A stretch of DNA of 64,000 nt, taken from Telopea speciosissima (taxonomy: Eukaryota; Streptophyta; Magnoliopsida; Proteales; Proteaceae). Under the pieces are notes generated by a model that was not told where the DNA came from, did not search any database, and saw only the letters and a program-made list of their open reading frames with translations. Both the position numbers and the translations under genes were made by a program. The stretch covers positions 19,959,542 to 20,023,541 of the forward strand of contig NC_057924.1 of the NCBI RefSeq assembly GCF_018873765.1, given 5' to 3'. Shown piece by piece: positions 16,485 to 59,490 of the stretch (position 1 is its first letter; each line of letters begins with the position of its first letter).

Positions 16485-16632
16485 CTTTATCCTCTCAAGT
16501 GTTGTGCACTGCCCAGTGCACCTAACTATGTGCATTCAACGATGCACTAGGCAGTGTACCTTTAAAGTTAACCTCTCAATCTCATGGTCACTGTCAGATG
16601 CTCAAGTGTGGTGCACTGGCTGTGCACTATCA
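16485..16632. repeat. Hairpin repeat, CACTTGAGAGGAT family (left-arm copy)
   Basis: It begins TTATCCTCTCAAGTG and contains internally complementary runs around GTGCACTGCC / GGCAGTGTACC. The right-arm partner at 46946-47084 keeps both ends (TTATCCTCTCAAGTG ... CACTTGAGAGGATAA); this copy has lost the second end. It has no coding content. It is present in both arms, so it predates the duplication. Confidence 0.75.
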
Positions 16633-17052
16633 TTACAAAAGGCCCATCTAAAACACTGATTTGTTTACACTCACCAACCACTTTTTCCATCTTGATATTC
16701 CTATCCGTTGTAGCATTATGCTAATCTAACGCGCAGAAACAATGGATATTATTTTTACAACACAGATAAAGAATACTGTATGTCTCAAAAGTTTTGTTTG
16801 AGGGAACTAATCTTGTAAGGAGAAATGCAGAGTTAAAGTTTAAACTAAGAATATATGGTTATTGGCATTATAATCCTACTGTCATGGGTTAACATTTTGT
16901 ATAACCAAGTCTGCCACATGCCCCAATGATACGTTGTGAATTATTGGGAAAAGGTGACTAACCTCGAAAAACATGAACCCTGGAAGAAACAGAGAAGAAT
17001 ACAGACATAGTACTGCACGAAATTACTGCCTCATTCCTCTTAAAATAAAAAA

Positions 17053-19089
17053 TCCCACTACCTAGGACTGCAGATAGAGAACTATTTCACCCAGAACCTG
17101 AGTTTTGGGAAGACGGGGCTTCCAATTCGCTACCTAGGAGTCCCGTTGGCTCCCAAGTCTCTTCGACCTGCGGATTTTACACCCCTGATTACTCGGTTGG
17201 AGGGGAGGTTAACATCTTGGAAGGCTCGGTCCTCGTCGTATGCGGGGAGATTGGTACTCATTAAGGCTGTCCTCATAGGTACTATTTCTTATTGGTTGAA
17301 TTTCTTCCGCATCCCTCGATGTGTTATCCACAGCTTGGAAAGGACCCTGGCTAAGTTCCTCTGGTGGGGGAATGCACAGAAGGGTATGTACAAGGTTGTT
17401 TGGGATTCGGTTTGCAAGCCAAGGGATGGGGGGGGGGGGGGGGGGGGTTGGCTGGGCCTAAGGAGATTGTCTGAGTGGAACTCAGCGGCTTTAATGAGAC
17501 ATGTTTGGTCTATTGCGACAAACGCTCCATCCTGCTGGGTCGCTTTTATACGCCATCGTTGGTTGCGACGTCACTCTGTTTGGTCGCTGGGCATCCCCTC
17601 CCAGTGCTCAACAACCCTCAAACACATCCTTCTTCTAAGGGGGGCAGCGATTGGAATGTCAAGATACCTGGTTCGATCAGGTGAGCAGACTCTTCTGTGG
17701 TTTGATCCTTGACTCCCACATGGCCCTTTGGCCCAGCCAGGTTTGCTAATCTCTGAAGCTCCGGGAAGGCAACCCTTTGAAAAAGTGGCTGCAATTCGGT
17801 CTGCGGAGGGTTTATGGATGGCACCTGTAAGTGATGACATACTAAAGGATTGGTGGGGTGAGATATCTAATACAAAAGTTTATAAAAGAATTCCCTACGA
17901 TACGTTGATATGGACTGCAGAACCCAGTGGGAGGTTTAGCTTGAGATCAGCATGGGAGTCTCTACGTACAAGGAGTCAGAAGGTGGCATGGCACAAGTTG
18001 GTCTGGTTCCCCACGGCTCAACCTCGGTTTGCATTTATCACTTGGCTGGCATGTAAGGAATAGCTACCCACCAAGTCTCGCCTTGCTGCTTGGGGGGTGC
18101 AAGTGGACATATCTTGTGTGCTTTGTGGTGCTTCGGTCGAAACATTGGACCACGTCTTTTTCCAATGTCCTTTCTCTTCAGTTATTTGGAGCGGCCTTCT
18201 TCTCATTCATCAATATAATCGGTGTCCTCTTGCAACATGGTATTGTGAGGTGACATGGCTCATGAAGCACTTTCATGGGACTTCTCTGATGAGCAGGGTT
18301 AAGTGCTTCAGCTTCATCATAGCGACCTATAGAATCTGGGAAGAAAGGAACAACCGCTTGTTTAACAGCAAGATGTGTGACGCGGAGGGGGGTGCTTCGT
18401 AGAGTGGTCATTGACACGAGAGCTCGCTACTCTCACAACACTGGTGTGGTTATCGACTCTCCGGCAACGAGGACCTTCTTTAGTAGATGGGAGGTGCAGG
18501 TGCAGTTCAAGCACACCTCGGCGACCTTTCATCGCTGCCCCCCCCCCCCTCGGGATGGCTGGAAGTTAACTGCGATGGGTCAGTGCATGATCGCCGGGGT
18601 GGCTTTGGCGCAATTTGCAGGGACGTTACTGGTCGGGTTCTATTTGCGTTGGCTGGTGGTGCTGAAGAAGAGAGTGTTTTAGGTGCTGAGTTGCTCACCA
18701 TTCGCTATGGCCTGTAGAAAGCTCGATCTTTGCAGCTTCCCCGTGTGCAGGTCTGTTCTGATTCAAGCTTTGCAATTGGGATTATTGGAGGGGGCTTTGA
18801 GGTACCTTGGTACCGCAGGGCGCTTCTGGAGGAGATCCACCAGCTTCGTGATGAGTTCCTGGGTTGCTTTTTTGTGCACCACCTTAGGGAGATCAATAGA
18901 TGTGCTGACCATCTGGCAGGCTTGGTCAATGTGAACCGGGTCCTCCACCTGGATGTTAACAATCTCTCCACGACTCTCGCTAACCTTGTGAGCGATAATG
19001 TTTGTGTGAGGGCATTTGTAAGACTGTAATTCCCCTCTTATATTTCTTCAATAATATTATCACTGCCCTTTCTATCCAAAAAAAAACAA
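17053..19089 (+). mobile_element. L1-type LINE, 5'-truncated ORF2 (zf-RVT and RNase H)
   Basis: Plus-strand remains of a plant L1 ORF2. The C-terminal reverse-transcriptase region (RYLGVPLAPK, SWKARSSSYAGRLVLIK, GTISYWLNFF) runs from about 17115. The zf-RVT region (PSGRFSLRSAWE, then C-V-L-C and H-V-F-F-Q-C) is at about 17920-18210. An RNase H domain (VNCDGSVHDRRGGFGAI, later SDSSFAI and INRCADHLA) is at about 18550-18930. A short A-tail is at 19077-19089. Stops at about 17710 and 18061 and a frame slip near the G-tract at 17428-17447 kill it. The right arm runs straight from the 17052 side to the 19090 side, so the insertion is later than the duplication. RNase H at the end of ORF2 is a known trait of plant L1 elements. 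Confidence 0.9.
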
Positions 19090-19463
19090 AATGTCATTCA
19101 TATTGATGTTACTACGTGTACTCTCATTGGCCACCACACTAGTACAAGGATTAGACGACCAGGCAGCAATCTCTTGCTCCAAGAATATATATTTAAAAAA
19201 AAGGGAAAAGCTCTCTGAGCCCATTGGAGGATACTCTCTCTCTCTCTCTCTCTCTCCATATGAAATGGCCTTGCTTACAAAATCATTCTTTCGCATCTCA
19301 TTGGTGCGCTCCACTGTATCGCTTGCTAGGCAACCTTCTCCCAAGATATAAATAGAAAGAGAAGAGCCACATATACTTATGATGTGGCAAAAAGAGAGCA
19401 TTATCAATCCCTATTTAGTGATAGTGGTGTCAAAAGAACCCGACAAACCCGAACCTGGAATTT

Positions 19464-19610
19464 TTATCCTCTCCTGTTACAACACGGTGCTGTAACGCAT
19501 TGTGCGGCGACTGCAGAGGCCATGTGCACCATGTGGGGCCCACTGTGCCACATGGCCTCGGCAGCGCCGCACGATCCGTTACAGCACCGTGGTGTAACAG
19601 GAGAGGATAA
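19464..19610. repeat. Hairpin repeat, GTTACAGCACCGTG family
   Basis: Near-perfect palindrome: TTATCCTCTCCTGTTACA at the left answers TGTAACAGGAGAGGATAA at the right. Inner arms are GGTGCTGTAACG / CGTTACAGCACC, and the loop itself is self-complementary (GAGGCCATGTG / CACATGGCCTC). It is followed by GATTCTCC. The right arm lacks it: near 45790 the flanks join directly. It therefore inserted into this arm, or left the other, after the duplication. Confidence 0.85.
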
Positions 19611-19737
19611 TGATTCTCCAAACCAGTCCTGAGCCCGGATAGGATTGAGCCAGGGCCTGTGTTTAATATAGGGTCGGATTGGATTTAGTGTTTTCCTAGC
19701 CCTGGGTTGAGGCCTCGACCCTGTATTATATAATATA

Positions 19738-20099: not shown

Positions 20100-21000
20100 T
20101 GACACACCTAATTGAGCACTAATTTTAGTGCTCAATTATGTTTTGCAATAAGTTTCTCATCTCTAATTGTATTCATCCACATCTTCTCATATTTCTACCT
20201 CTACCGGACTTCATATTTTGTCCATCTTCATTTTCTTTATTGGATTACATTAACATGTCAATTGAGGATCATGTTACGTTAATGCTCGATGGTGTGTTTG
20301 ATCAATCTTCTTGCCAGGCTGGATGAGCCCTATTGTATTAAAATCCATAATCAGTTTGCTTTTTGTAGCTTCGAATCATGGTGAAACATGTGTGCGGATA
20401 TCCCTCGTAAAAAAAAGAAAAATCATGGTTGAACAGGAGGTAGGGTTGAGTCTTTGAATCAAAGTCCAGCTCAAGTCCTCGTACGAGGTCAATCCTTGGG
20501 ACTTGCGCACCACTCTAATGAAATCTAGAGGGGGCAGTGGATTCCATTAGAGTGGTGCTCAAGTCCCAAGAACCGTCCTCATATGAGGACCTGAACCATC
20601 GGAGAACATAAGATTGAATTGAGACAAAGGCTAAAGGATTGCTCCAAGGTCTCTAAGGAAAAGTGTTGTTGGGGTGCAAATCCTTAGAAGTGTGGACAAA
20701 TTCTCAAGAGTTGATCGCTATCTTGAGCATGCATATAGGGGGTGGAGATTACTCTTTTAATGCTGTGGGTTGGAAGGTACAATCGGATAACTCTATACAA
20801 TAGGCAAACATGTTGGCAATTAAAGGTCGGACCTATAGGCTGAGTTAGGATTATTAATAATAGGGATGTGATGGATATTTTATATGTTTTTCTTTTAATT
20901 TAATTTATTTTTATTTTATTTTATTTCCATAAAAAATATTCCTCTCTCGAAGAAAAGAAAAGTTGTACAAAACTACCGTTAGCAGTGTTGTACACCCAAT
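20100..21000. other. No gene seen; small inverted repeat at 20505-20575
   Basis: Spacer shared in part with 45010-45480. It includes a palindromic piece in which CACCACTCTAATGAAATC (20511) is answered by ATTCCATTAGAGTGGTG (20547-20563). The right-arm version is at about 45384-45438. No coding potential was found. A T-rich stretch lies at 20880-20940. Confidence 0.5.
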
Positions 21001-21006
21001 ACCGGA

Positions 21007-21323
21007 TTTTTATCTCGTCAAGTATAGTTCACTTTCAAGTGCACCAAAAAGGTACATCTGACGGTGCACATACACTTGGGAGAGTGTTTTGAACAAAATC
21101 ACTTTAAGGTACCCAAGGGATTAGCTCAGTTGGCAAAAGACCAACTTCTCAAATAAGTTGTCATGAGTTCAAATCACCTTAATTGGGGCCTATCTCCATC
21201 CCCTAATCCCACCCGCCCCCCCTCCCTCTCTCCCTCCTTATCATACAAACTCTTAATCCCAAAAAACAAAAAATCACTTTAAAGTGACGATGTACCTTTT
21301 TTATGCACTTGAGGTGATAAAAA
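21007..21323. repeat. Hairpin repeat, CACTTGAGGTGAT family, split by a SINE
   Basis: The outer arms are TTTTTATCTCGTCAAGT (21007) and ACTTGAGGTGATAAAAA (21307-21323), with inner arms around AAAAAGGTACATC / GATGTACCTTTTTT. The loop is interrupted by a SINE at 21108-21269. Without the SINE the hairpin is about 145 bp. It is absent from the matching place in the right arm (near 45010), so hairpin and SINE both arrived after the duplication. Confidence 0.75.
21108..21269 (+). repeat. tRNA-derived SINE with 13-bp target duplication
   Basis: It opens with a tRNA-like head: TTAGCTCAGTTGG fits the RNA polymerase III A box and GAGTTCAAATCACC the B box, about 30 bases apart. A C/T-rich body and an A-rich end (CCCAAAAAACAAA) follow. 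It is flanked by perfect 13-bp repeats AAAATCACTTTAA at 21095-21107 and 21270-21282, the hallmark of target-primed insertion. Total length is about 162 bp. The SINE family is not identified. Confidence 0.85.
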
Positions 21324-24251: not shown

Positions 24252-24425
24252 TAGCTTTACCCTTCTTAAAATACCCTTCTATGTCTCTCACCATAGGTTT
24301 TTTTAAAGAGAAAATTTTCCTTCACAACAAGGTGAAAGTTCACCACACCATATAAGGATTCAGAAACCCTTATTCACCACACCATATAAGGAAAATTCAA
24401 TCCTCGTTTAAATATAAAAATAATG

Positions 24426-24610
24426 GGAGAAAGAACTCTACCCAGTCACACCAGACATGCCGCCCTTGCGTGCTGACATAGGGCCACTTGAAATGATCAC
24501 CGCACCTCTAGTCATTTCTAGGGATCCAAGGGGTGCGGCAATCATTTTACGCACCCCTATGTCAGGGCGCAAGGGCGGCATGCGTTGGGTGACCCGGTCG
24601 CGTTCTCTTT
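24426..24610. repeat. Hairpin repeat, GCCGCCCTTGCG family
   Basis: The outer ends are GGAGAAAGAAC and GTTCTC, with strong inner arms GCCGCCCTTGCG / CGCAAGGGCGGC and CTGACATAGGG / CCCTATGTCAG, and a CACCGCACC / GGTGCGGC pair. Sisters are at 48462-48647 and 57348-57534. It is absent from the matching place in the right arm. Confidence 0.8.
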
Positions 24611-24641
24611 GTTGTAATTGGAAGCAGTTTTATGTCCGAGA

Positions 24642-24764
24642 GTGTGGCTTATGCCAACACTCCCATGTGTCTATTTCTCTCCTCCTCAAAATAAGGGGGC
24701 AAAAGTGTCTTTTCATATGGAGAGGAGAGAGATAAACTCATGGGAGTATTGGTGTAGGCCACAC
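24642..24764. repeat. Short hairpin repeat, CCAACACTCCCATG family
   Basis: GTGTGGCTTATGCCAACACTCCCATG-type left arm (24642-24667) answers CATGGGAGTATTGGTGTAGGCCACAC-type right arm (24739-24764). The centre also folds (CTCTCCTCCTC / GAGGAGAGAG). It sits immediately beside the preceding hairpin and is not seen in the right arm. Confidence 0.7.
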
Positions 24765-24829
24765 TGTTGGACAGAGCTCTTTTTCCCAAAACTTTTACTT
24801 AGAAAGTAGAGACCATTACTCTTGTTGGT

Positions 24830-25905
24830 ATGAGTCATACAATCTCCAAATTAAAACTAGCAGCCTTTGAATTTTTGTCCACCTCTAGAAACACTAATTT
24901 CTTTATCACCTCTTGGTGGAAGTTCTTTTGGAAACTCAAAATTCATCCAAAATTTAAGATCTTTTTTTGTTGTGTTCTGAATGCAGGACTACCTATCAAG
25001 GCTTCCCTTTCAAGATGGACTCAGATCGACTCTTCCTGTGCCTTTTGTGGAATCTGTGCCGAATCTTACTACCATCTATTTTTATCTTGTGATTGGGTTA
25101 AGCACATATGGGTGGCACGCCCATTGGGGCTGAGAAACGAACACCTGGTCTTTCCCAATTTGTCTGATCTTTGTCTTTCCTTGGTTTTAAACCGCCTGCT
25201 TGATAAACAATCTCTTAATTGGTTTTTTAGTGTTTTTATTATTACATGTTATTTTATATGGGATACAAGGAACAAGGTCATTTTTAGAGGCGAAAAACCC
25301 AACCCCATGTGGGTTTTAAATCAAATAAGACATTGGTTAAATGATTTACATTTAACCCCCCCCCCCCCCCACATTTCCATCCTATGATGTACCTGCTGCT
25401 ACAGAGGAGATTCTATCCGTCCCACCATGTATTATCTTACCAACTTTGGATTTTCTTGTTTTGATCTGTGCATGATACTGTATTCCTGGATTAACTGTGA
25501 CAGGATGGTCTTACATCTTTTTGATTAAGGGACGGCTTAAGCTTTTGGTTGCATGATTTGTTCATACATCTCTTGCGATGGAACCTGACTTAGTTAGTAT
25601 TCGCATAGGACTGGATCAAACGTCCTCACTGGGGTTGAAGATAAAAGAAATATGGTGCTCAAATCCAATGATAACTGTAGTTCTTCCATCTCCAACCACA
25701 TCCACCTGGCCGTAGGAACTTATTAAGGACTTATTTTATATATCTACCAAGTATCCTGATAGATGTATTACAAACAATGGTAACCGTTTTTGTATAGCCC
25801 TAGCTGTGAACTTAGTGAAATATGGCCAAACCAAAAAAGCCTGTATATCATTTGGTTTCTTAGCAATATAATTCTTTTTTATTATAAAAAAAAAAAAAAA
25901 TACAA
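24830..25905 (+). mobile_element. LINE fragment: zf-RVT region plus 3' tail
   Basis: A long frame (24830-25387) reads like the zinc-binding region at the end of LINE ORF2: SWWKFFWKLKIHPKFKIFFC, then C-A-F-C-G, then H-L-F-L-S-C-D-W-V-KHIW, and later NWFFSVFIITCYFIWDTRNKVIF. It has no reverse-transcriptase core and no RNase H. A C-tract (25358-25371) ends the frame, and an A-tract follows near 25887-25900. The right arm is continuous where this lies, so it is a 5'-truncated insertion made after the duplication. Confidence 0.75.
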
Positions 25906-30870: not shown

Positions 30871-32220
30871 TTATTTAGAGAACTTAATGAAAGCAACATG
30901 AGTGGTGTTGGAGACTTTTTCGAGAGTGCCAAGCTCAGGAGCCAGCAAACACTTAGAGGATTCTTCCCTGTAAAAGAAACCCAAACATCCACAATCTTTA
31001 CTACACTTATCCCTACACTCAACCACCTTCATAGGCCCATCTCCCTCTGTATACCCATTCATAAAGTGCTCCACACCCACAACTTTATAATAATCCACCT
31101 TGGCCCCACCCTTACCCTTGTTACAAGAAGGCAACACAGGTGTTGCACAGCTCTTGCTCCACCCCACCATGCCCTTTTGAGTAGGACAAGCCACACATTG
31201 ATCATCTTCACAAACTCCCAATGACCCACATCTTGTAGGTAACTGGCATTCACTCTCCCTCCCTCTCTCCCTCCCTTTCCTTTCAAAGAGACTAAAGGTG
31301 GTCTCCCATGCACCCCAATCAACTTTGTCATAGTAAGTGTAGATATTTAAATTACCATCATATCCCAATCTTAGCATAGAAAGAGTCCCGTTATACTTTG
31401 GCCGGGCTAAGAAAGAACTCCCGGACGACACATTATTGATCTCCAACTCCAACATCAAATCAAAAGCATTGTTTTCTTTCGTATCAGGTTCACTATTGAA
31501 GCGCAAACGTGTCAACGTTGCACCCTTTTCATATGTAAACTTAGGGTGAGGATAATAAAGTAAGGGCTTAACAGAATTCTTACTCTTCATGTACATGGCC
31601 CACCGTATCTTCTCCAATTCAAACCTGAAAGTTCCTTCTGAGCCATCAACGGCAGAGAGACGACTAATAAGCTTGTTGGGTCCCCCTGGACGAAGTGATT
31701 GGCCCACTAAGAGTGTATCAGTTGGGTGATCAAAGCTTTCCCAAACAAACCTTCCCTTCTGATCGTATAATACCAAGTTGCCGTTGGAGAAGAGTCTTAG
31801 CCCAACGACACCCTTGTTGGCGGTGCCGGTTTGCCACGCGACACTACCGTCGACGTCGGCCAGGACGAGATTGCCGTCGGTGCCGAAGGTTAGAGTGGCG
31901 TTTTCGTGAACTGGGTTTCCACGGTTGGCATCCCAAACCCAACGCATGATTGACTCGGAATGACGGTTGCCCATTCGAAGGCCAAGAGTGAAGGCATTGG
32001 GAGTGGTATTGTAGAAACAGAGAGCGAAGGGAAATGTTTGGAGATCTGTGACACGGTAATCTGCGCCGTATTCTACAATGTATTGGCCAATTTCGCCTTG
32101 GTTTATGAATTTGAAGGTCTTGGAAGCAGGGACAGTGGCTTGAGCTGTGAACAATGAGATGATTAAGAAAAAGACGGCGAGGAGCCCTAGTGCAAGACGA
32201 GAAGAAGAAGAAGAAGACAT
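30871..32220 (-). CDS. EP1-like secreted bulb-lectin glycoprotein (left copy)
   Basis: 449-residue intact frame without introns. The N-terminus is a signal peptide (LALGLLAVFFLIISLFTAQA, cut near residue 28). A bulb-type (D-mannose-binding-like) lectin domain lies at about 75-190 (WVWDANRGNPV, GNLVLADVDGSVAWQTGT, NGNLVLYDQKGRFVWESFDHPTDTL), then a Cys-rich EGF/S-locus-like patch (C-x5-CGSLGVCEDDQCVACP) and a C-terminal PAN/apple-type domain with paired Cys (VECRDKCSKDCGCLGFFY). There are about five N-glycosylation sites (NTT, NAT, NVS, NGT, NTT). The family is named after carrot EP1, an abundant glycoprotein of the epidermal wall and cuticle; there is no kinase domain, so it is not a receptor. 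It has four extra residues (RERG) versus the right copy, arising in a CTCCCTCC microsatellite near 31260. TATA-like box, leader and poly(A) signal are all present. Confidence 0.92.
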   Translation of the reverse strand: MSSSSSSRLALGLLAVFFLIISLFTAQATVPASKTFKFINQGEIGQYIVEYGADYRVTDLQTFPFALCFYNTTPNAFTLGLRMGNRHSESIMRWVWDANRGNPVHENATLTFGTDGNLVLADVDGSVAWQTGTANKGVVGLRLFSNGNLVLYDQKGRFVWESFDHPTDTLLVGQSLRPGGPNKLISRLSAVDGSEGTFRFELEKIRWAMYMKSKNSVKPLLYYPHPKFTYEKGATLTRLRFNSEPDTKENNAFDLMLELEINNVSSGSSFLARPKYNGTLSMLRLGYDGNLNIYTYYDKVDWGAWETTFSLFERKGRERGRESECQLPTRCGSLGVCEDDQCVACPTQKGMVGWSKSCATPVLPSCNKGKGGAKVDYYKVVGVEHFMNGYTEGDGPMKVVECRDKCSKDCGCLGFFYREESSKCLLAPELGTLEKVSNTTHVAFIKFSK

Positions 32221-33930: not shown

Positions 33931-34146
33931 TAAAGCGGATAAAATTCCTCTGCAATGCTTAATCTTGTTGTGCCTTTGAAGTTTGGGTCTGTGAGCTCGA
34001 CACGTGAAAGATGCTTCATCCAACGGTGTGATCTTGAGAATACCCAGTTGTTATTATTATTATTTTTTCCTTTCTATTCGAGCTCGCAAACCTGAATGCA
34101 AACCACAAGATTAAGCATTGCAGAGGATTTTTTATCCTTTTAAAAC
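33931..34146. repeat. Hairpin repeat, CTCTGCAATGCTTAATCTTG family
   Basis: AAAATTCCTCTGCAATGCTT at 33941-33960 is answered by AAGCATTGCAGAGGATTTT ending near 34131, with further pairing TTTGGGTCTGTGAGCTCG / CGAGCTCGCAAACC inside. It stands directly against the preceding long-inverted-repeat element. A microsatellite (ATT)n marks the loop side. Confidence 0.7.
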
Positions 34147-36430: not shown

Positions 36431-36721
36431 CGGTGAAATCGTTTCTTCCACTCTGAACACAAGAACAAATCGCAGTGAGAGAACCACTAGAGAAGATAGC
36501 TAGTCTTCAACCAAGAACATATTACAGAGTAGAGAAGGGCGCATAAGAGCTTGGTCGATTTACTCTCGTCTCTGGAGATATGAAAGAGGGGCTCGAGCAG
36601 GTTATTGTCCTACCCAATCCAAAAATGGATTTTCATCTCAAATATGATGCAACGTTCTTACAACCGTTGAATTATAAAAATTCACGTATTGTCCTCCTAG
36701 ACCCTCACTGCACCAAAAAAA
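36431..36721. other. No gene seen; possible extra gag remains
   Basis: It may still belong to the fossil on its left: a plus-strand, protein-like stretch is visible at about 36480-36640, but no motif was recognised. No other feature was seen. Confidence 0.35.
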
Positions 36722-36883
36722 TATCTCCTGCAATCCCCTGGCCAGTACAGTTCCCCTAGTGCCTCTAATAAGAGGGGATTGAACCCCACCCAGCCTGAGT
36801 GTTTGGTCAAGAGTGGAATGGTCATTACGCCCCCTTGTTAGGGGCACTAGGGAACTCTACCGAGCAGAGAATTGCAGGGGATA
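36722..36883. repeat. Hairpin repeat, GTTCCCTAGTGCCTCT family
   Basis: The outer arms are TATCTCCTGCAATCC and the answering AATTGCAGGGGATA, with inner arms GTTCCCCTAGTGCC / GGCACTAGGGAAC. The loop carries TGTTTGGTCAAG. Two sisters occur at 59142-59303 and 59327-59490. Confidence 0.8.
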
Positions 36884-37451
36884 AAGATCCCACTGCACCT
36901 AGATCTAAGAATTGGAGAGGATTTTTATGCAATCCGGATGCTTGAACAAACACTACGTACATCACTATTGAGGTATATTTAGCTGTCATCACTTTATCAA
37001 AAAGTATTTAGTTGTCATCCATCAGACGAAAGTCCAACTGCAATCCATTATGTGTTTACTTCAATCTTCTTTACCAAAAAAAAAAAGTGTTTACTTCGAT
37101 CTTCGCACCATTCTTTTTATCAAATTAAGTCCATGCCTTTACTCTTAGTCAGGTTCCGTTGAGCGTATGTATGTGTACGTTCAGTTGTGGACGCTCCATT
37201 CTAGGGGTGCAAGTTTGGCCATGTCGGCCCGAACCCACCCTGCCCACCCTGAGCCTGAACAGGGCTTAGGCTGAGATATTTGGCCCTGAGGATGAGTCAG
37301 GGTTGGAAATTTCTGGCCCGGAGGCAGGGTCGGGTTGGGCCAAGGTTGAGGCCTTGGGCTAAGCCTGACCCGACCCGACCCTGTTTTAAGTTATACTATA
37401 AAATATATATTTATATATATTATAAACAGTAAATGTCACCCACATTTTGTT

Positions 37452-37610
37452 GGATTTGGATCATCTACGGCGCGGCTGCCCGTCCTACCTGTGCTTCGTA
37501 GACACAGGGCCACGCACTAAGACCGCCTTACCCCTACCCGGGTGGAGGTAAGGCAGTCTTTGCACATAGCCTTGTGTCTGCGCAGCAGAGGCAGGAGAGG
37601 ATCTGGATCC
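37452..37610. repeat. Hairpin repeat, GTCCTACCTGTGC family (nested in the hAT element)
   Basis: GGATCATCTACGGCGC with CCTACCTGTGCTTCG opposes GCGCAGCAGAGGCAGGAGAGGATC. The inner stem is CCGCCTTACCCC / GGAGGTAAGGC. Its sister is at 40938-41127. Confidence 0.75.
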
Positions 37611-37817
37611 CATTTTGTTAAATATAATATATTATACATGAAGACATAATACATTTTATTACAATGTTATTTTACGTAAAATTGATAATTTTCTCCCCAA
37701 CCCATTCCAGCCCATGCATTTCCTTCCCCCTCCCCATGATCAGGGTCAATCAGGGTCTATCTGGTCCAACCCTGAGGGCGGGTCAAGGTTAGGTTTTTCT
37801 GGCCCTAAGTCGGACCC

Positions 37818-37986
37818 TGATCCTCTACTGCCGAGCTGCTCGACAGGACCCTAGCTACTGCCAAGACACAGTAAGGCGATAAATTACCGCCTTACCCCTA
37901 CCCGATTGGGGGGAAGGCAATCATTTACCGCTTTGCTGTGTCTTGACAGTAGGGTCATGCCGGGCAGCTCGGCAGTAGAGGATCCA
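37818..37986. repeat. Hairpin repeat, ACTGCCGAGCTGC family (nested in the hAT element)
   Basis: GATCCTCTACTGCCGAGCTG at the left is answered by CAGCTCGGCAGTAGAGGATC at the right, with inner stems GACCCTA-like / TAGGGTC and CAAGACACAG / CTGTGTCTTG, and a CCGCCTTACCCC centre shared with the GTCCTACCTGTGC family. It is almost a perfect palindrome. Confidence 0.85.
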
Positions 37987-38091
37987 ATTGCCCTACGTCA
38001 GGGTCGGGTTGGGCCTGAACCCAGCTAAGGGGACTTAGGGTTGGACTAGGGTTCTATAAAGCCGGCCCAACCCGACCTTCTTGCAGCCCTA

Positions 38092-38488: not shown

Positions 38489-38538
38489 AGATGCTTTCGT
38501 CCTCGAGTTTTCAAGCACCCCCAAAAGAAGCAGATAAG

Positions 38539-40215: not shown

Positions 40216-40428
40216 GTATTGTTGGCTAAATGAAATTTTGACAAAAAAAGCCACTAAAAACCCATTATTAGAGAATAACCCAATATTCAATTTTGGATGC
40301 GGTTCGTGTGATTACTCAAAAAAAAAAAAAAAAAAAAAACATTGCGTTGGGTGTGTGGGTTTAGTCTCACATCTGATATGTGAGTATGGTGTGCGTTGTG
40401 TATATCCACCATTCTGTGAGTGAGCAGG

Positions 40429-40553
40429 GAATGTTCACGTACGTGAGCGTTCGTGAATGACTCACAGCTGTTTAAATGGAATCCAATTTGTGAAAGTGTT
40501 CCATTTGAACGGCTGTGAGTCATTCACGTACGCTCATGTACTTGAACATTCAC
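40429..40553. repeat. Hairpin repeat, GTTCACGTACGTGAGCG family
   Basis: GAATGTTCACGTACGTGAGCG with ATTCACAGCTGTTTAAATGGA-like continuation opposes GAACGGCTGTGAGTCATTC followed by ACGTACGCTCATGTAC and TGAACATTC. Arms are about 55 bp with a very short loop (about 40485-40495). It is present only in this arm. Confidence 0.8.
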
Positions 40554-40937
40554 CGGACTTATTCTGTGATCCCAACTCGACTGCTCTATGTGACAAACAT
40601 GTACTCCACCATTCACTATGTGACAAACATGTACTACACCAGCTCCATACATCTTTCCAAACAGATCTCACCCAAAATCCCCTCAAATGCTTGACGCAAG
40701 CAAGAAGCATTAATCCTTTTTCCACCATTAGAATTTACAAGCTGAGTCTTGGTCCTCTTAGCATACATCATCTTAATTTAGCATCAATTCTCATTCATCC
40801 ATTAACAACCCACTCCAAAGAAAGAAGCATACACATACACATACAAAAATAAATAAATAATTAAAATCAAATAAAGAGACTAGTAGAAAAGGTATATTAA
40901 TTTGTTCCTTCTCGGCATAAGGAACTAGACCCTGTCA

Positions 40938-41127
40938 GATTTGGATCCTCTACGGCATAGTTGCCTATCCTACCTGTGCTACGCAGATACAAGGTCATGC
41001 GCAAAGACCACCTTACCCCTACCCGAACACCTTGCCAGAGTGGGGGTAAGGCGGTCTTTACGCTTGGCCCTGTGTCTGCACAGCACAGGTAGGACGGGCA
41101 GCTGTGCCATAGAAGATCTCAATCCAA
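40938..41127. repeat. Hairpin repeat, GTCCTACCTGTGC family
   Basis: GATTTGGATCCTCTACGGCA and CCTATCCTACCTGTGCT oppose AGCACAGGTAGGACGGGC and TGCCATAGAAGATC. The inner stem GACCACCTTACCCC / GGGGTAAGGCGGTC flanks a loop. It is a sister of 37452-37610 and is absent from the left arm. Confidence 0.85.
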
Positions 41128-42975
41128 ACCCCCTCCCCAATTTTTTGTGGGAGAGTAAGAGAGAAACTAAGGGTCAAAACATCCAATTACCAAAACAAAA
41201 AAGGAAAGATTCACATGTCACAATCTGGCAAACACTACAGAAGGTTATCCAAACCAGTTTAGTGTCATTTATCGTAACTATGGATTAATACGTAAAAGAA
41301 TGTTTTTTGGATTAGTGTAATGCATTTTATTTTCTTAAGTTGTAAAGTTATTCTCATATCTCTTAGAACTATAGGATTTAAGTGCCCAAACATGACTTAA
41401 TGGTTTAACCTTAATTTGGTGACTTTGTCTATGATCATAGGGGAACATTTTGGACTTATATTGGTATATTTGATTAGGAATGTTCACGAAAAACCTATGG
41501 GATATCAAATGCCAAAGAGTCAGGAAGTTTAGGCCTAAAAATTCTAACCAGTAGGTGTACTGATTGATCGGCTTGAAGCCGGTCAGTGTTATCCTAGGCC
41601 AGTGCTTTCTAGAACATTGTTTCTGCACCACTAGAAACTTCAAGGAAAATTTATGAAGTCGTGCACTCATAATTGGTAGATGCTCAAAACATAAAAGTTG
41701 TATCTCTCTAAGTTATCTTTCGTATGGTTTAAAAATCAAGTCAATTAGAGTTTGGGAGAGAAAGTTATAGCCTTCTTACTGACCATGTGTTTAGGTGGAC
41801 CGAGGGGCAGTCGAATTGTTCACAAATCCTAGTTGTCCCTAGTCTGTGTACTGATCGATTGGAGATCAACCTTCAAACCCCAACGATTATAAAACTTTCA
41901 TTTTATAACCACTTTTTGAATTTGTAAAAAATAGATCCGTTTGAGATTATTTTTGTCACATCTTTTTGCCATTCTTTCTCCTCTATTTAAGAAAGGTTTA
42001 AGGGAGTTTCAACTAAGACTCTTGCACATTTTTTAGTTTTGGTTTAAAAGATTTTTGAGAATCATAGTATTGAGATTTCAACTTGCATATTTTACCCTTT
42101 GAGGTTTTTAATTTTATTCTTAAGTTATATATGTGGCTTTTATGCATTGTGTTGCATCCTCTTCAAAGAAAGAGTTGTAGTAAGAGATTGGGGAATCTTC
42201 GCTGTTGTAAGAGTACGTTGTGAATAGTAGCTTGAAAAACTACTTGGATCTGAGTGTGAGCCCGAAGAAACACTTGGGATTAAGTGTGAGCCCAAAAAAA
42301 CATTTGGGTTAATTTTGAGCCCGGAAATACAATTGTGAGAAGACATCATCAATGTCATTTTGAAGTTGATCATAGTGGAAAGTTTAAGTGTCTGGGTATC
42401 ACTTATTAATTAGTGGATGTAGATAAGACTAGGAACCATTCTAAATCTTATTGTATCACTTATTAGTCTGACCCTTGACGCCCTTAGTGGCCGATATTAG
42501 AGAAGAAAAGACTTAGGCTTAATCCAAAAAAAACAAGACGACAAAACGACAAAGAGTCGAGACTCATGGCAGACAAAGACCGAGAAAGGAAAGAGATTCG
42601 TTACCTCCGATTAACCCGTCAAGAACTCGGCAGGGACTCATCTGGATCTAGGGTTTTAAACCTTGGTGCAAAGACATATTGTAACCAGCTGGATCGTAGG
42701 CATGGCTTGAGGAATTGGTATCGAATTGGCCAGATCAGCTGATTTGCTCCTGATTTATCCGTATCGATAGATCTATACAGAACAAGTGTACAAATCTAAA
42801 ATAAAATTAATTTTTTCAAAAAATACAAGGGTAAATCAAAACGAAACAGATCGATCCATAATCGACTACTAAAACCTTGATTCGGGGATGCTTGGGCTAT
42901 TTTTTGAGAAGAGTCATCGAAATGCTTGCCTTCTCCCTTACTTTACATACTCACTAAAGTCTGAAACACCTCTCA
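41128..42975. other. No gene seen; shared arm sequence
   Basis: It mirrors 25920-26540 and 26900-28345 of the left arm (minus the solo LTR) and includes the mirror copy of the TATCGG-type repeat at about 42700-42880. No believable host gene was found. Confidence 0.5.
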
Positions 42976-43100
42976 TGTTATCGCCTCTAATTCGCTGTCT
43001 GCTCTAATTCCTCACATAGGAGCAAAAATGACCACCCTACCCCTTTTTGAACAGTGAATTGGAAGAAATTGGAGCGGACAGTGAATTGGAGGGGATAACG
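42976..43100. repeat. Hairpin repeat, CTAATTCGCTGTCTGCTC family
   Basis: GTTATCGCCTCTAATTCGC and GTCTGCTCTAATTCC oppose GAAATTGGAGCGGAC and AGTGAATTGGAGGGGATAAC. The right end is followed by GATTCTCTACCC, the same kind of phrase that follows the hairpin at 19464-19610. The left arm has the empty site near 25950. It is specific to this arm. Confidence 0.8.
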
Positions 43101-43891
43101 ATTCTCTACCCTAGATATTGATGTCTAAAAGAGCTTTGCTTTATCAACAAGAGCAGTGGGCTCTAATTTCTTAAGTAAATTTTTTTATATTAAAAAGAGG
43201 ATTGAATTTTCTTTAAACAACGGTGTGTGATTGAGAGGCATGGAAAGGGTATTTTGAGAAATATATTAAAATACTATAAGGGTTTCTGAATCCTTATATG
43301 GTGTAGTGAAAGAAAATTTTCTCTTTAGAAAAAGCCACGGTGAGAGGTTTCGGAAGGCTATTTTGGAAAATATATTAAAATCTTATAAGGGTTTCTGAAT
43401 CCTAATAATATGGTGTGTCGTTGGAAAAATTTCTGTTATAAAAAAAGTTTCAAGTAAAATTCTGATTAATGTAACGTGCCACCGGCTGAAACACAGTATC
43501 GTAATTTGGAACTGTAATTTAAAAAATCACAATTGGGGATCAAATCGATCAGACCGATTTTGATTCAAATCGGCCTGAATTGGTCCCATCCAAATGGTTC
43601 AAAACTGTTTTGTGGTGAAAATAGAATCGGCCCATGAATCGGTCTGATTCAAGATGAATTACAAAGAAAGTGACTGGGTCTAGGAATTGACTGATTCGGA
43701 AACGATTTAGTTGGTCCGATTCTGATTCAGACTATGACGATTCTAATTCAACCAATTCCAATTCCCGATTCTTGAAACCTTGGTCGACTCACGTATAGCA
43801 AAAACATTCCATCAATTAAATTGTAACAGTTGCAGCGATTGTTCACTAAAAAACAAAAAAATTACACCAATTTTTTTTCAATCTTTTTCCA

Positions 43892-45660: not shown

Positions 45661-46242
45661 ATAAATATATATTATATAATACAGGGTCGGGCTGGCCCTG
45701 TCAGAGCAGAGGCCTCAACCCAGGGCCAGGAAAACACTAAATCCAGCTTGATCCTATATTAAACACAGGCCCGGCCTAATCCTATCCAGGCTTAGGTGGA
45801 TTCGGGTTGGTCGGATTTTTTTGACACCCCTAGCACTAAATAGGGATTGACAATGCTCTCTTTTTGCCACATCATAGTATATATTTCTCTTCTCTTTTTA
45901 TTTATATCTTGGAAGAAGGTTGTCTGAGCAAGCGGCATAGTGGAGTGAACCAATGAGATGCGGAAGAATGATTTTGTACATAGAAGGGTACCCTCCAATG
46001 GGCTCATAAAGCTTTTCCCTTATTTTTAAATAAATATTCTTGGAGCAAGAGATTGATGCTTGGTCATCTAGTCTCTGCTAATGTGGTGGTCAATGAGAGT
46101 ACACATAGGAACATCAACATGAACAAAAATTTTAAGTTTAAGAAGACTGAGGCAGGAATTTCATACGCTTCTATGTTTGGGTGCAAAGGGCATGCAACGA
46201 GGCAGTGTTGTGTTTCCCTTTTCTTCTCTCCTTTTCTTTAAG

Positions 46243-46585
46243 GCTTCGTTTGGTTGCAAGGGGAATTAAAGGGAAAAGAATGAAAAATTTTCAAACCTAA
46301 AAAAGAAACTTTTGTAATCATTACCCCATGTGATTGTATAAACTACTTAAAATTCTTACCATATCTAGTAAAGATATATTTTACATGTAATATTTATTTT
46401 ACATTTTAAACCAAAGGAAAATGGATGCAAAGTAAAGTGAAATTTAATAACCAAATATGGAATGATTTAGAATTAGATATATTGTCACATGGTATCACAT
46501 GGGGTAATGATTAAAAAAGTTCATTTTTTAAGTATGAAAATTTCACTTCCCTTCCCTTTAACTCCCCTTAAAACCAAACGGAGCC
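46243..46585. mobile_element. Tourist-like MITE, 343 bp, TAA target duplication
   Basis: The termini are GGCTTCGTTTGGTTGC and, inverted, GGCTCCGTTTGGTTTTAAGG. They are flanked by TAA on both sides (46240-46242 and 46586-46588), as for PIF/Harbinger MITEs. The second half is an inverted echo of the first (GGGGAATTAAAGGGAA / TTCCCTTTAACTCCCC). The matching place in the left arm (about 16982) has no insert. Confidence 0.85.
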
Positions 46586-46945
46586 TAAGGGTTCATGTTT
46601 TTCGAGTTTAATCGACTTTTCCCAATAATTCACAACGTATCATTGGGGCATGTGGCAGACTTGATTAGACACAGAATATTAACCCATGATAGTAAGATTA
46701 TTATATCAATAACCATAGATTCTTAGTTTGAACTTCAACTCTGCATTTCTCCTTACAAGATTAGTTCCCTCAAACAAAACTTTTGAGATATACAATATTC
46801 TTTATCTTTGTTGCAAAAATAATATCCATTGTTTCTGCGCGTTAGATTAGCATAATGCTCCAACGGATAGGAATTTCAATATGGAAAAAGCGGTTAATGA
46901 GCGTAAACAAATCAGTGTTTTGGATGGGCCTTTTGTAATGAAGTT

Positions 46946-47084
46946 TTTATCCTCTCAAGTGCGGTAAACTGTCAGTGCACCACACTTGGGCATCCGATGA
47001 TGGTCATGAGACCGAGAGGATTAACTACTGTTAGACGGACAAGTTAGGTGCACTTGGCAGTGCACAACACTTGAGAGGATAAAG
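46946..47084. repeat. Hairpin repeat, CACTTGAGAGGAT family (right-arm copy)
   Basis: TTATCCTCTCAAGTGCGG at the left end and CACTTGAGAGGATAA at the right, with a second internal TCGGTCTCATG-like fold (GGTCATGAGACC). It is more complete than the left-arm copy at 16485-16632. Confidence 0.8.
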
Positions 47085-47139
47085 ATCAGTTTGTAATATA
47101 CATCAAAACAAAAAATTTTGATGTCTAGATATAAGTAGT

Positions 47140-48461: not shown

Positions 48462-48647
48462 GAGAAAGAGAATGCCACCCGGTCGAGTAGCGTACGCCGC
48501 CTTTGCATCCTGACACAAGGGCATGTGAAATGACCGCCACACACCCTGGAACCCCCAAAACCAAAGGTACGATGTTCATTTCACCCACCCTTGTGTCAAG
48601 GCACAGAGACGACGTGTCTGGTTCGACCAGGTGGCGTTCGTTCTCCC
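48462..48647. repeat. Hairpin repeat, GCCGCCCTTGCG family
   Basis: GAGAAAGAGAATGCCACCCGGTCG-type left end (48462-48485) opposes CGACCAGGTGGCGTTCGTTCTC (48624-48645), with inner arms CGCCTTTGCATCCTGACACAAGG / CCTTGTGTCAAGGCACAG and ATGTGAAATGACCG / TTCATTTCAC. Sisters are at 24426-24610 and 57348-57534. Confidence 0.8.
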
Positions 48648-51600: not shown

Positions 51601-51776
51601 GGATCGGGCTCCTCTAGCATTAGAGTGTCCAATGAGGCATTCGACGGCTGGGCTGTGTTGCACATGTCTCCATGTGTGCCCAATCAGCTGTCGGGATATA
51701 TGCAGCATAGACTATCCATCGGATGCTTCATTGGGCACTCATTGGACGATGCCCTTTAAGGAGAAGAGCCAGATCC
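51601..51776. repeat. Hairpin repeat, TGTCCAATGAGGCATTCGACGG family, copy 1
   Basis: GGATCGGGCTCCTCTAGC at the left opposes GGAGAAGAGCCAGATCC at the right. Inner arms are GAGTGTCCAATGAGGCAT / ATTGGGCACTC and ATTGGACGATGCC, and GCACATGTCTCCATG-like pieces pair in the loop. Ends of the GATCC...GGATC type recur here too. Confidence 0.7.
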
Positions 51777-51786: not shown

Positions 51787-51988
51787 GGATCCGATTCCTC
51801 TCCAAGGAGCCCAACACCTACAGAATGCCCAGGGGGTATTTAAGGGTTGGATTGTGCCACGCATAGTCCAGTGCATGCCTAGTCAACCATCGAGATGTGT
51901 ATGGTATAGCCCAACGGCTGAATGCCCCCTACTCCCTACCCCCTAGCACTCTTTGGGTGTTGGGCTCCATGGAAAGGAGCTCAATCCT
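51787..51988. repeat. Hairpin repeat, CCAACACC family (adjacent, copy 2)
   Basis: GGATCCGATTCCTCTCCAAGG and AGCCCAACACC oppose GGTGTTGGGCT and CCATGGAAAGGAGCTCAATCC. The middle shares the GTGCCACGCATAGTCCAGTGC / CAACGGCTGAATGCC style of its neighbour. It starts 10 bases after copy 1, a head-to-tail pair. Confidence 0.7.
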
Positions 51989-57120: not shown

Positions 57121-57347
57121 TCTACCCTAGCGACTGAGAACCTTTTCCCTTGATTAAATTAGATTTTAAAATTTTATATGTGACTAATCTAGATGATGTG
57201 CTATCTATCAAACGGTTAGAATTGTCATATCATTTTTCCACTTGGCACAATGAGGATGTCGTTCATATATACATGTAAGAAAATCTTAAACTTATACTTT
57301 ATATAAGATATCTCTCTAGCATATTTTATGTCTTATTATTGAACATG

Positions 57348-57534
57348 GAAAGAGAATGCCACCCGGTCGTGCAGGGCATGCTGCCCTTGCACCCTGAGAT
57401 AGAGGCACATGAAATGACCGTCGCACCCCCTGAAACCCTAGAAATGATTAGGGGTGCGACAGTCATTTCACGTGCCCCTATGTAACGGCGAAGGGGAGGC
57501 GTGTCTGGTGCGATCGGGTGGCGTTCTTTCTCCC
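57348..57534. repeat. Hairpin repeat, GCCGCCCTTGCG family
   Basis: GAAAGAGAATGCCACCCGGTCG-type left end opposes CGATCGGGTGGCGTTC, with inner arms GAGGCACATGAAATGACCGTCGC / GCGACAGTCATTTCACGTGCCCC. It is the closest sister of 48462-48647, sharing the same outer GAGAATGCCACCCGGTCG. Confidence 0.8.
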
Positions 57535-57724
57535 TATTGAATATTAAAATTCTTTCCCCTCCTATAAAATTCTAATTGCATCATTTTTAACTAGGAAAAA
57601 AAAAAGAATTGAGCAAATATAACAATGGGCAAGGGGGTAAAAAAACCAAACACAATTGATGAGGTTGGGGGAGGATGTTGTATGATGGCCTTGATCTTGA
57701 TTTTTTATTTTTGTTTGAGGAAAA

Positions 57725-57882
57725 GAAGGCTGCTAGGCTGTGTGGTGCTTGCACCTAGACGCAGAAAGAGCAAAATGTCTGCACTGTCCCCATGAAATGA
57801 AAAATTCTACCCTTGTTGGATGCCTCCGCATACTCTCGTTGGCCCCTGCACTGTTGCAAAAAACATACAGCCTAGCAGCGAT
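57725..57882. repeat. Hairpin repeat, GGCTGCTAGGCTGT family, copy 1
   Basis: GAAGGCTGCTAGGCTGTGTGG opposes CATACAGCCTAGCAGCGATC. The inner pairing is weak and the middle holds TGTTGGATGCCTCCGCAT. A second member with the same ends and the TGTTGGATGCGCCCGCAT middle is at 58208-58375. Confidence 0.7.
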
Positions 57883-58207
57883 CCCCTCTATAATCTACTA
57901 CTTGATATGCAAGCTTCTTGTGGAAGATTTGTATCCATGGCAACCTCAACAATAAGCATTTTCTTACCTGTGGCGTAGTTATGTAGGGAGGGATAAGTAT
58001 CTCTCCACCACCTTTGCCCATAGACCATGGTTTCTCTGCCATGTGGATGCTAATTCGGAGGTTAAAGTTCTGAATATTGGATGGCTGGATTAAAGTCTGA
58101 TCCAACATGTCTCTATTTTCAATGGTGAATCATTTACCTTGTTGAGTTTTTTACTTTTCAGTTTTCTACTCTTACAATATCACAAATAATATAAAATTAA
58201 GAAAAAA
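57883..58207. other. No gene seen
   Basis: Spacer between the two hairpin sisters. Short frames on both strands have no support. Confidence 0.5.
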
Positions 58208-58375
58208 GAAGGCTGCTAGGTTATTAGGCCACGTCACACAGTAACGAGTGCCCATACATAGGAAGGGAGAAATGACGGCCCTACTTCTTGTGAAATAAAA
58301 AAAATCTTGTTCTTGTTGGATGCGCCCGCATTGAACCCCATGCTGATGCAAGGGTCATGTAGCCTGACAGCAATC
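58208..58375. repeat. Hairpin repeat, GGCTGCTAGGCTGT family, copy 2
   Basis: GAAGGCTGCTAGGTTATTAGGCC opposes TCATGTAGCCTGACAGCAATC. The middle TGTTGGATGCGCCCGCATTG matches copy 1. The copies are about 480 bp apart in the same orientation. Confidence 0.7.
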
Positions 58376-59141
58376 ATTTCTCATAAAAATAAGTCCTGAA
58401 AGTGTATTTGTCTTCATATAAAGGACCTTGGGTTGTCTAATGTTGTGCCAGACTCCTTAGCCTAGAAGACCCTGTCAATACCGTGTATGATAGTGTGGTT
58501 AAATTCCATTTCGTGACCAATCGAAAATTTTGATCGAATCTCACCTTGCCTTTACTCTAATCCTCCAATCATATACTAAAAAAAATGAATAATTGTTAAC
58601 ATGCTGCAAGAGAAATTTATAAAAAAAAAAAAAACCAATAGCATTGTGTAACAAAAATATATTTTATTGGGTTGGACCACACAATAAGCTAGCCCAACAC
58701 CCCACATGAGAATCCACACTAAAATAAAATTTAAATATTTAAAGTAAACAAAAATCCTTGCACATTATTGGTTGTAGTTAGAACTGTCCTACTATCAAGT
58801 TAACATTTTCATATCTTCCCATGAAAAAGACCATTTCAGAAAAATCTTACCAAAAAAAAATCCAGAAAAATCAAACCAAAAAAAATTAATAATAATAAAT
58901 TTTAACTTGATATCTCAGTGTGGCTATTTTTCTTGCACGGAACTTAGCGCTTACTAAAGGCCGATGGGCTATCGATCCACACGACTCACTAGGGTTGGGT
59001 GTCAGTGAATTATCATAAGGCATGCTGAGCCAAATCCACGCTTCAACGAGACTTTTAGTGCGACCCTAGTAAATGGAGCTGAAAGATGTACGGTCAAGCC
59101 GTCAAGAGGAATCCGACTGCGGGACCTCCTCTTCCTAGGAT
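58376..59141. other. No gene seen
   Basis: AT-rich spacer with several A-tracts (58581-58587, 58620-58634, 58850-58860). No coding or repeat structure was recognised. Confidence 0.5.
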
Positions 59142-59303
59142 CTTTATCTCCTGTGGTTTTTTGTTTGGTATAGTTCCCATAATTCCTCTCATAGGAGATG
59201 AAAATGACTACTTTACCCCTTGAACATACTGTCTGAGTGGGGTCCATCCCTTCTTATTAGAGGTACTAGGGAACTATATCAGGTAGAGAATCGCAGGAGA
59301 TAA
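59142..59303. repeat. Hairpin repeat, GTTCCCTAGTGCCTCT family, copy A
   Basis: TTATCTCCTGTGGTT with TATAGTTCCCATAATTCCTCT opposes AGAGGTACTAGGGAACTATA with ATCGCAGGAGATAA. It is a sister of 36722-36883 and of the copy that follows 24 bases later. Confidence 0.8.
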
Positions 59304-59326
59304 TTTTTCCTCTCCCTGATCGAATT

Positions 59327-59490
59327 TTTATTGTATGCGGTTCCCTGACCAGTGTGGTTCCCTAGTACCTCTCACAAGAGAGGGGTGGACCCCACCCGGG
59401 TAGAGTGTTTGGTCAGGTGTCTTAGGTGGGTCCCACCCCCTCTTGTGAGAGGCACTAGGGAACCGCACCAATCAAGAACCGTAAACAATA
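59327..59490. repeat. Hairpin repeat, GTTCCCTAGTGCCTCT family, copy B
   Basis: TATTGTATGCGGTTCCCTGACC and GTGGTTCCCTAGTACCTCTCAC, then AAGAGAGGGGTGG, oppose CCACCCCCTCTTGTGAGAGGC, ACTAGGGAACCGCACC and GAACCGTAAACAATA. The stem is almost continuous. The right end is followed by ACGATTCCTCCC. Confidence 0.85.

Follow-up and report, generated by a model that had tools for sequence, protein, structure and literature searches.

Several Families of Mutator-Like Hairpin MITEs in the Genome of Telopea speciosissima

Introduction

The target site duplications of Mutator transposons are 8-11 bp long, typically 9 bp; those of hAT elements are 8 bp, those of Tourist are TAA, and those of Stowaway are TA. 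Stowaway MITEs include many palindromic families with a common short terminus, and the hairpins described here resemble them in both respects. However, the TA duplication and the mariner transposases belong to Stowaway and set the two apart.

Among the matches listed, the only close one in the literature was Tm1, a Phantom-type Mutator/Foldback transposon with FLYWCH plus MULE transposase. The excerpted text of PMC3169594 describes Tm1-ML as a Mutator/Foldback family of root-knot nematodes with MITE-like inverted-repeat elements. According to the same text, Tm1 has mostly 9-bp (8-10) duplications, its inverted repeats include a GGA motif and tandem units of about 14 bp, and beyond these repeats lie asymmetric 7-bp outer motifs, of which most copies have one of each kind (PMC3169594). 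Tm1 is thus an earlier example of a Mutator-type inverted repeat flanked by asymmetric outer motifs. The Telopea elements also carry unlike outer motifs of about 7 bp, one of each per element, but the motif letters differ. In addition, they are short plant hairpins that start with GATCCTCT or TTATCC and include several body families. Neither a GGA motif nor tandem repeats of about 14 bp were seen in the consensus arms when these were read by eye.

In a survey of 207 plant genomes, Mutator elements made up 41.5% of the MITEs (PMC12550479). The Telopea hairpins resemble such plant MITEs, which are short, non-coding, bounded by inverted repeats, and abundant in plants. The available portion of that survey describes no shared-end or unlike-end rule, and the strings 'telopea', 'macadamia', and 'palindrom' are absent from its main text. 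Furthermore, the excerpts of two other studies show that TIR-MULE duplications of 8-11 bp were accepted (PMC3903597) and that Pack-MULEs carry gene fragments inside common ends (PMC3903597, PMC3310237). The present elements share with them Mutator-type ends, and common ends around differing interiors. However, TIR-MULEs have long inverted repeats (100-500 bp) and a non-palindromic interior that is often coding or gene-derived (PMC3903597, PMC3310237). The hairpin families reported here are new and of an already known kind, and their pattern of unlike ends is clean.

Hairpins in the Window

The window analyzed in this study is a 64,000-nt stretch of NC_057924.1 from Telopea speciosissima, in which a first-pass annotation had named 21 sites as near-perfect palindromic hairpins. 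A gapped self-complement scan found 20 peaks with a score of at least 20 in the window, versus 0, 0, and 0 in three second-order shuffles. At a score of at least 24, hairpins beyond chance were present at 17 of the 21 sites and missing at 16485, 21007, 57725, and 58208. Two further hairpins, absent from the earlier list, were found at 20471-20594 and 46261-46566, and the latter is a different element. The term "near-perfect" was overstated, and the arms of 12 ungapped pairs in the window were 75-91% complementary. The elements of the window are about 136-201 bp long. ORFs overlap some of these hairpins.

Body Families and Palindromic Founders

After 18 nt had been trimmed from either end, the bodies of 21 window elements and 7 other elements formed 13 clusters at E 1e-3. 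Ten unrelated families had been proposed; 6 of the clusters found here are single elements, and some clusters are held together by partial matches only. In the five families searched (A to E), there were 111 to 1483 first-look candidates per family.

Family A is represented in the window by a plus-strand hairpin MITE at 37812..37990 (ends GGACCCTGATCC / CAATTGGATCC; flanks ccctaagtc/ccctacgtc). The hairpin MITE at 37452..37610 has a partly A-like body, with 40 nt in common at 85%, and a 9/9 duplication (cattttgtt). The body of the one at 40937..41125 resembles that of 37452, and its duplication is ambiguous. Family B lies at 19458..19616 on the plus strand (ends GAATTTTTATCC / GAATCATTATCC), and the duplication of this copy is 7/10. 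Meanwhile, family E is found at 46941..47088 on the plus strand (family ends GAATTTTTATCC / GGATCTTTATCC; flanks ttttgtaat/gtttgtaat). A degraded copy of family E without a clear hairpin lies at 16480..16640 on the minus strand, and the fragment at 21003..21060, which has an E-like left end (CGGATTTTTATCTCGTCAAGTA) and no body match at E 1e-3, is a candidate copy only.

One cluster joins the elements that start at 36715-36716, 42969, 59136-59141, and 59322. It includes the family D hairpin MITE at 59322..59497 on the plus strand (ends GAATTTTTATTG / GAATCGTTATTG; flanks ctccctgatc/ctccctgacc), a hairpin MITE with a D-like body at 36715..36890 (9/9 duplication cactgcacc), and one at 59136..59307 with a body partly like D and 42969 (flanks tcctcttcc/tcctctccc). 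The hairpin MITE at 42969..43104 is of the CCTCCAATTC type, with the right end GAATCGTTATCC and a decayed left end, and its duplication was not found.

Family C has plus-strand hairpin MITEs at 57346..57534 (ends (T)GGAAAGAG / GGGAGAAAG; flanks tattgaaca/tattgaata) and 48462..48647 (flanks aaaaaatat/aaaacatat). A third family C hairpin, at 24425..24609 on the minus strand, lies within a larger dispersed repeat that is also present at locus L080. It is adjoined by a second hairpin at 24620..24786, the first part of which also occurs 3' of the hairpin in L080. The other elements are hairpin MITEs at 33937..34137 (ends GGATAAAATTCCTCTG / GGATAAAAAATCCTCT; flanks ttttaaagc/ttttaaaac), 51601..51776 (ends GGATCGGGCTCCTCT / GGATCTGGCTCTTCT; duplication 8/9), and, adjoining the latter, 51787..51987 (ends GGATCCGATTCCTCTC / GGATTGAGCTCCTTTC; duplication weak), and a hairpin at 40420..40560 with the unlike outer ends GTGAGCAGGGAATG / AAGTCCGGTGAATG and a 9/9 duplication (attctgtga).

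The two arms of the majority consensus are identical over 65 nt in family A and 62 nt in family B, and 90-93% identical in families C, D, and E (measured without the centre and the last 8 nt at the element ends, gaps uncounted, and A redone with end-based orientation). The copies are 5-15% away from their family consensus. The bodies of the founders are palindromic, either perfectly or nearly so. Under body-only orientation, family A showed mixed polarity, which might be read as flipped bodies. We rejected this reading: over 65 nt the founder of A is a mismatch-free palindrome, and the orientation of its body is thus nearly uninformative.

It is quite possible, if somewhat doubtful, that all of these hairpins belong to one ancient lineage, whose bodies diverged past recognition from a single founder instead of being replaced, and whose ends were kept by selection. 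The cross-family body matches, namely the cluster of four elements around family D and the segment common to A and 37452, would be expected from such a history. However, mismatch-free founders over the aligned nt of A and B are unexpected after long divergence unless the arms were homogenised.

Target Site Duplications

The hairpins had been reported to lack obvious target duplications and not to fit ordinary MITEs. Our results contradict both statements. From the 80 copies that were fetched from the five families, 10 were dropped for unclear ends, and 45 of the 70 scorable copies had a 9- or 10-bp flanking duplication with at most one mismatch, versus 0/982 mispaired controls at k=9 and 0/982 at k=10. 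By family, such duplications were found in 16/20 copies of B, 10/16 of A (20 fetched), and 12/14 of C (20 fetched), but in only 4/10 of D and 3/10 of E. In the window, the best 9-mer duplication near the ends reached at least 8/9 in 11/22 elements versus 13/462 mispaired controls; some of these boundaries were set after the duplications had been seen, and the test of 70 copies is the cleaner one.

Because 45 of the 70 copies carry 9/10-bp duplications, the hairpins are Mutator-like MITEs. They have duplications within the 8-11 bp range of such elements and terminal or sub-terminal inverted repeats, their length leaves no room for a transposase gene, and they occur in many copies. Elements of hAT, Tourist, Stowaway, Helitron, or SINE type are likewise short, non-coding, and high-copy. 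However, inverted repeats and duplications are both present here, and the duplications are of 9/10 bp, not of 8, 3 (TAA), or 2 (TA). A hAT MITE was rejected since 0/70 scorable copies had an 8-bp duplication with at most one mismatch, and a Stowaway or Tourist MITE since the 9/10-bp duplications are of varied sequence and are not TA or TAA. A SINE, which would have an RNA-gene head and an A-tail or simple-repeat tail, was also rejected: the fetched copies end in an inverted repeat with no A-tail seen, the window has no tRNA match, and no Rfam match in it exceeds the gathering score. An origin from any of these types is scarcely credible.

In addition, the predicted RNA stems are strong (z -7.8 to -18.7 for 14 elements, 30 mononucleotide shuffles each), as would suit microRNA-like precursors or other functional stem-loops that are not transposons. 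Target duplications, dispersed copies, and the lack of Rfam matches in the window all argue against this explanation, and we consider it very improbable. It is possible that small RNAs are derived from the stems as a by-product.

Shared Terminal Sequences

Common ATCCTCT-type ends had been proposed for the hairpins, and we found them on several families with dissimilar bodies. Across 256.5 kb of non-N letters, from the window and 20 sampled loci, GRATYNNNATCCTCT had 7 exact matches versus 0 in one shuffle, and 29 versus 8 at one mismatch or fewer; the excess was small at two or fewer (126 versus 98). The genome-wide end search that had been suggested upheld the pattern. GAATNNTTATC...GATAANNATTC at 147-177 bp occurred 832 times versus 1 for the reversed pattern, a further end-pattern count gave 158/170 versus 0 in the reversed control, and the end of one family, with at most one mismatch, gave 244/218 versus 0 in the control. 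ATCCTCT motif pairs in tandem showed no clear excess (34 versus 28 in the control).

The end pairs of the hairpin MITEs include GAATTTTTATC/GAATCGTTATC, CAATTTG/GGACCCT, and GGGAAAGAG/GGGAGAAAG. The last type, not ATCCTCT, is found in similar form at the family C hairpins 24425, 48462, and 57346, and the sites 24620, 40420, 57725, and 58208 carry still other ends. A GATAAYGATTCTC-like phrase had been noted 3' of several hairpins. It is no separate feature: its first letters, GATAACGATTC or GATAATGATTC, are the opposite end of the element itself.

Given the common ends on dissimilar bodies and the genome-wide end pattern, we infer that many hairpins are acted on by a single type of transposase or by a small number of related types. 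The earlier suggestion of a single mobilising mechanism holds to this extent, but family C, 24620, 40420, 57725, and 58208 are without the ATCCTCT end. The observed ends could also be a convergent mixture, in which distinct MITE lineages, Mutator-type or other, each have a transposase of their own and a short pyrimidine-rich ATCCTCT end that is alike by chance. The differing ends of family C and 40420, the single-element clusters (6/13), and the small excess at two mismatches would agree with this. However, all five sampled families have the same 9/10-bp duplication class and the reversed-pattern controls gave 0-1, and such a mixture is unlikely.

It is very probable that the hairpins are several high-copy families of Mutator-like MITEs, short DNA transposons without coding sequence, and that a single Mutator-type transposase or a small number of them moves these in trans. 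In the mechanism that we propose, the putative transposase would recognise a terminus of about 15 nt, which takes the form GRAYNNNNATCCTCT or GAATNNTTATC in the main group, and would cut the target with a stagger of 9-10 bp. One enzyme may serve all ATCCTCT-type families. The palindromic body varies by family and can probably be replaced freely, and new bodies might arise via inverted duplication or arm-to-arm copying that halts short of the unlike terminal nt.

Unlike Ends

The outermost 7-8 nt or so differ between the two ends of an element, for example CAATTTG versus GGACCCT and GAATTTTT versus GAATCGTT. Among the 832 elements, like-ended ones are rare (6 YR/YR and 12 WW/WW). The YG/WW combination was found in 45 of the first 50 listed of the 832, and 20,000 random pairings averaged 22.7, with 36 at most; related copies are not independent, and the YG/WW binomial probabilities are not taken as evidence of selection. 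By inspection, with point variants allowed, the ends were unlike in 20/20 copies of family B, 10/10 of D, 10/10 of E, and 20/20 of C. With end-based orientation, exactly one AATTTG-type end was present in 18/20 copies of family A, and 2 copies were unclassified.

We tentatively suggest a two-ended rule, which is possible rather than probable: a Mutator-type transposase would pair a left end (GAATTTTT, GAATAATT, or CAATTTG) with a right end (GAATCGTT, GGATCTTT, or GGACCCT) and rarely move like-ended copies, while the palindromic body is repeatedly replaced. If this is true, hairpin bodies with unlike ends are the selected form rather than a chance legacy of a single founder. Two differing outer motifs are retained in hundreds of copies, across several dissimilar bodies, though a palindromic body could easily turn symmetric. 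The families are therefore a large natural experiment on the end requirements of a Mutator-type transposase. They may reveal the turnover of palindromic MITE bodies under constant termini, which is relevant to how new MITE families and hairpin-derived small RNAs originate in plants. In practice, they are extra families for the repeat annotation of this genome.

Transposase and Donor Search

The Mutator transposase domain PF10551 is common in the genome, with 827 candidates, and all of the 150 that were scored were over the cut-off. A matching pair of element ends was found at 0/6 of the transposase loci examined around open PF10551 frames among these 150 hits. A 20-bp repeat pair at locus L110 is A-rich, and the repeat pair at L113 (13/20 nt, with taatttttt on its flanks) appears fortuitous. 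At another locus, L109, a 51787-type hairpin MITE adjoins the transposase domain.

Target duplications of the hairpin families

All results come from one genome, an assembly of 823 Mb in 1287 contigs with chromosome-sized contigs (C1-C11) of 57-88 Mb; the window corresponds to C9:19959542-20023541. The first-pass annotation described the window's hairpins as lacking obvious target duplications. However, duplications of 9 or 10 bp were present in fetched copies of five hairpin families, A (window copy at 37812), B (19458), C (57346, 48462 and 24425), D (59322) and E (46941). From 40 scored places per family, 80 copies were fetched (20 each of A, B and C, 10 each of D and E); the ends were set by motif, which left 70 scorable copies (4 of A and 6 of C were dropped). 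With each copy entered once at most, a 9- or 10-bp duplication with at most one mismatch was found in 16 of 20 copies of B, 10 of 16 of A, 12 of 14 of C, 4 of 10 of D and 3 of 10 of E. Mispaired controls gave 0/982 at 9 bp and 0/982 at 10 bp. Furthermore, none of the 70 scorable copies had an 8-bp duplication. In the window, duplications of at least 8/9 flanked 11 of 22 elements against 13 of 462 mispaired controls, with some element boundaries chosen after the duplication was seen; perfect ones occur at 36715 (cactgcacc), 37452 (cattttgtt) and 40420 (attctgtga). The duplications of these families are of the Mutator class, for which 8-11 bp is accepted in the available text of one study (PMC3903597).

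Abundance of the hairpins

A gapped self-complement scan of the 64 kb gave 20 peaks with a score of at least 20, and three second-order shuffles gave none. Hairpins were recovered at 17 of the 21 positions first listed (score at least 24), but not at 16485, 21007, 57725 and 58208. The element at 16485 belongs to the family of the 46946 hairpin but has degraded, and the likeness of 21007 to this family is limited to the left end. Two weakly palindromic elements, 57725-57899 and 58208-58375, have a common start, GAAGGCTGCTAGG, and no convincing target duplication was found for them. In addition, a 124-bp hairpin absent from the first list lies at 20471-20594 (start TCAAGTCCTCGTACGAGG); no clear target duplication was found there.

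Outside the window, in 20 loci of 10 kb (192.5 kb without N), five elements matched the ATCCTCT motif at both ends with no more than two mismatches each and were flanked by a duplication of 9 or 10 bp that reached 7/9 or better (L009:8420, L010:7926, L012:2713, L015:5518 and L017:8234). The end pairs at L009:584 and L023:5587 also match the motif to this degree, with weaker duplications (0.60 and 0.67). Extrapolated from this sample, the genome would hold very roughly 20,000 elements, with a wide error. Two sampled loci (L024:7105-7418 and L026:1421-1727) contained a further family of inverted repeats, whose ends resemble GGGTAAATTACATGTCACCCC.

Shared ends and unlike end pairs

The common ATCCTCT terminus proposed in the first-pass annotation holds within one group of hairpins, but not for family C (ends GGGAAAGAG/GGGAGAAAG) or the elements at 24620, 40420 and 57725/58208, which have other ends. 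In the window and the 20 sampled loci together, GRATYNNNATCCTCT occurred exactly 7 times vs 0 in one shuffle, 29 vs 8 times with at most one mismatch, and 126 vs only 98 with at most two. Genome-wide, GAATNNTTATC-N(125-155)-GATAANNATTC occurred 832 times vs once for the reversed pattern, and GGATNNNNATCCTCT-N(120-150)-AGAGGATNNNNATYC 158 and 170 times on the two strands vs 0 for the control. When 18 nt were cut off each end and the bodies of 28 elements were compared at E 1e-3, they formed 13 clusters, six of them single. Thus, the bodies are mostly dissimilar where the ends are similar.

Copies of B, C, D and E were oriented by body, and end types were assigned by eye. All copies of B (20/20) and D (10/10) had the left end AATTTTTA and an AATCG-type right end (including AATCA, AATTG and single point variants). 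All E copies (10/10) had AATTTTTATCC and GGATC(T or C)TTATCC, and all C copies (20/20) had one GGGAAAGAG-type and one GGGAGAAAG-type end, point variants included. Family A, oriented by its ends, has CAATTTG vs GGACCCT outside a palindrome starting GATCCTCTACTGCC. The two arms of the majority consensus were compared without the centre and without the 8 nt at either extremity of the element, and gaps were disregarded. They showed no difference in B (62 nt) and A (65 nt) and an identity of 90-93% in C, D and E; copies diverged from the consensus by 5-15%.

Among 832 GAAT-type elements, 6 were YR/YR and 12 WW/WW (classes overlapping in TA), and the other 814 had unlike ends or other dinucleotides. 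The first 50 listed included 45 YG/WW, 1 WW/WW, no YG/YG and 4 others, vs a mean of 22.7 YG/WW under random pairing; since the copies are related by descent, this pairing shows retention and not by itself selection. What does suggest function is that one and the same right end has been kept on the different bodies of B, D and the CCTCCAATTC family. It is possible that pairing of unlike ends is obligatory and the palindromic bodies are exchangeable.

Proposed mechanism and known relatives

Most likely, a Mutator-type transposase would bind the ends of about 15 nt in trans, the bound element would be excised or copied, and insertion would follow with a 9-10 bp stagger. This genome is rich in Mutator transposase domains (827 candidates, 150 scored). 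A matching pair of ends was found at none of six transposase loci examined. At one of these loci, a GCTCCTCTCC-type hairpin MITE (L109:5422-5590) with near-identical 9-bp flanks (gttaattac/gtaaattac) adjoins the transposase domain.

According to the available text of its description (PMC3169594), Tm1 of root-knot nematodes belongs to the Mutator/Foldback type. Most of its duplications are of 9 bp, and its outer motifs of 7 bp are asymmetric, with one of each present in 24/39 and 20/22 elements of two species; its authors considered non-inverted outer ends unusual, yet known from other Mutator-like elements. As far as that text describes Tm1, the Telopea families are similarly built, unlike outer ends included. 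However, the GGA motif and 14-bp tandem units of Tm1 are absent from their consensus arms, as read by eye. In addition, Mutator MITEs are common in plants, at 41.5% of MITEs in 207 genomes in the available part of a survey (PMC12550479). Thus, the Telopea families are new, and their kind is already known.

Other elements nearby

A 344-bp hairpin element absent from the first list (46242-46585) has ends GGCTTCGTTTGGTT/GGCTCCGTTTGGTT with TAA on either side and resembles a Tourist-type (PIF/Harbinger) MITE. The family C hairpin at 24400-24830 recurs at C9:21.28 Mb, again joined by the first part of a second hairpin, and the two places have similar flanks; a MITE thus seems to be embedded in a larger dispersed repeat. 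The stretch 21117-21185 (GGGATTAGCTCAGTTGG ... GTTCAAATC), adjoining a family E-like fragment, resembles a tRNA-derived SINE head; ARAGORN and Rfam gave no match there. Finally, the ORFs at 30871-32220 (-, 449 aa) and 38491-39876 (+, 461 aa) closely resemble each other, lie in opposite orientation and presumably encode bulb-type (mannose-binding) lectin domain proteins.
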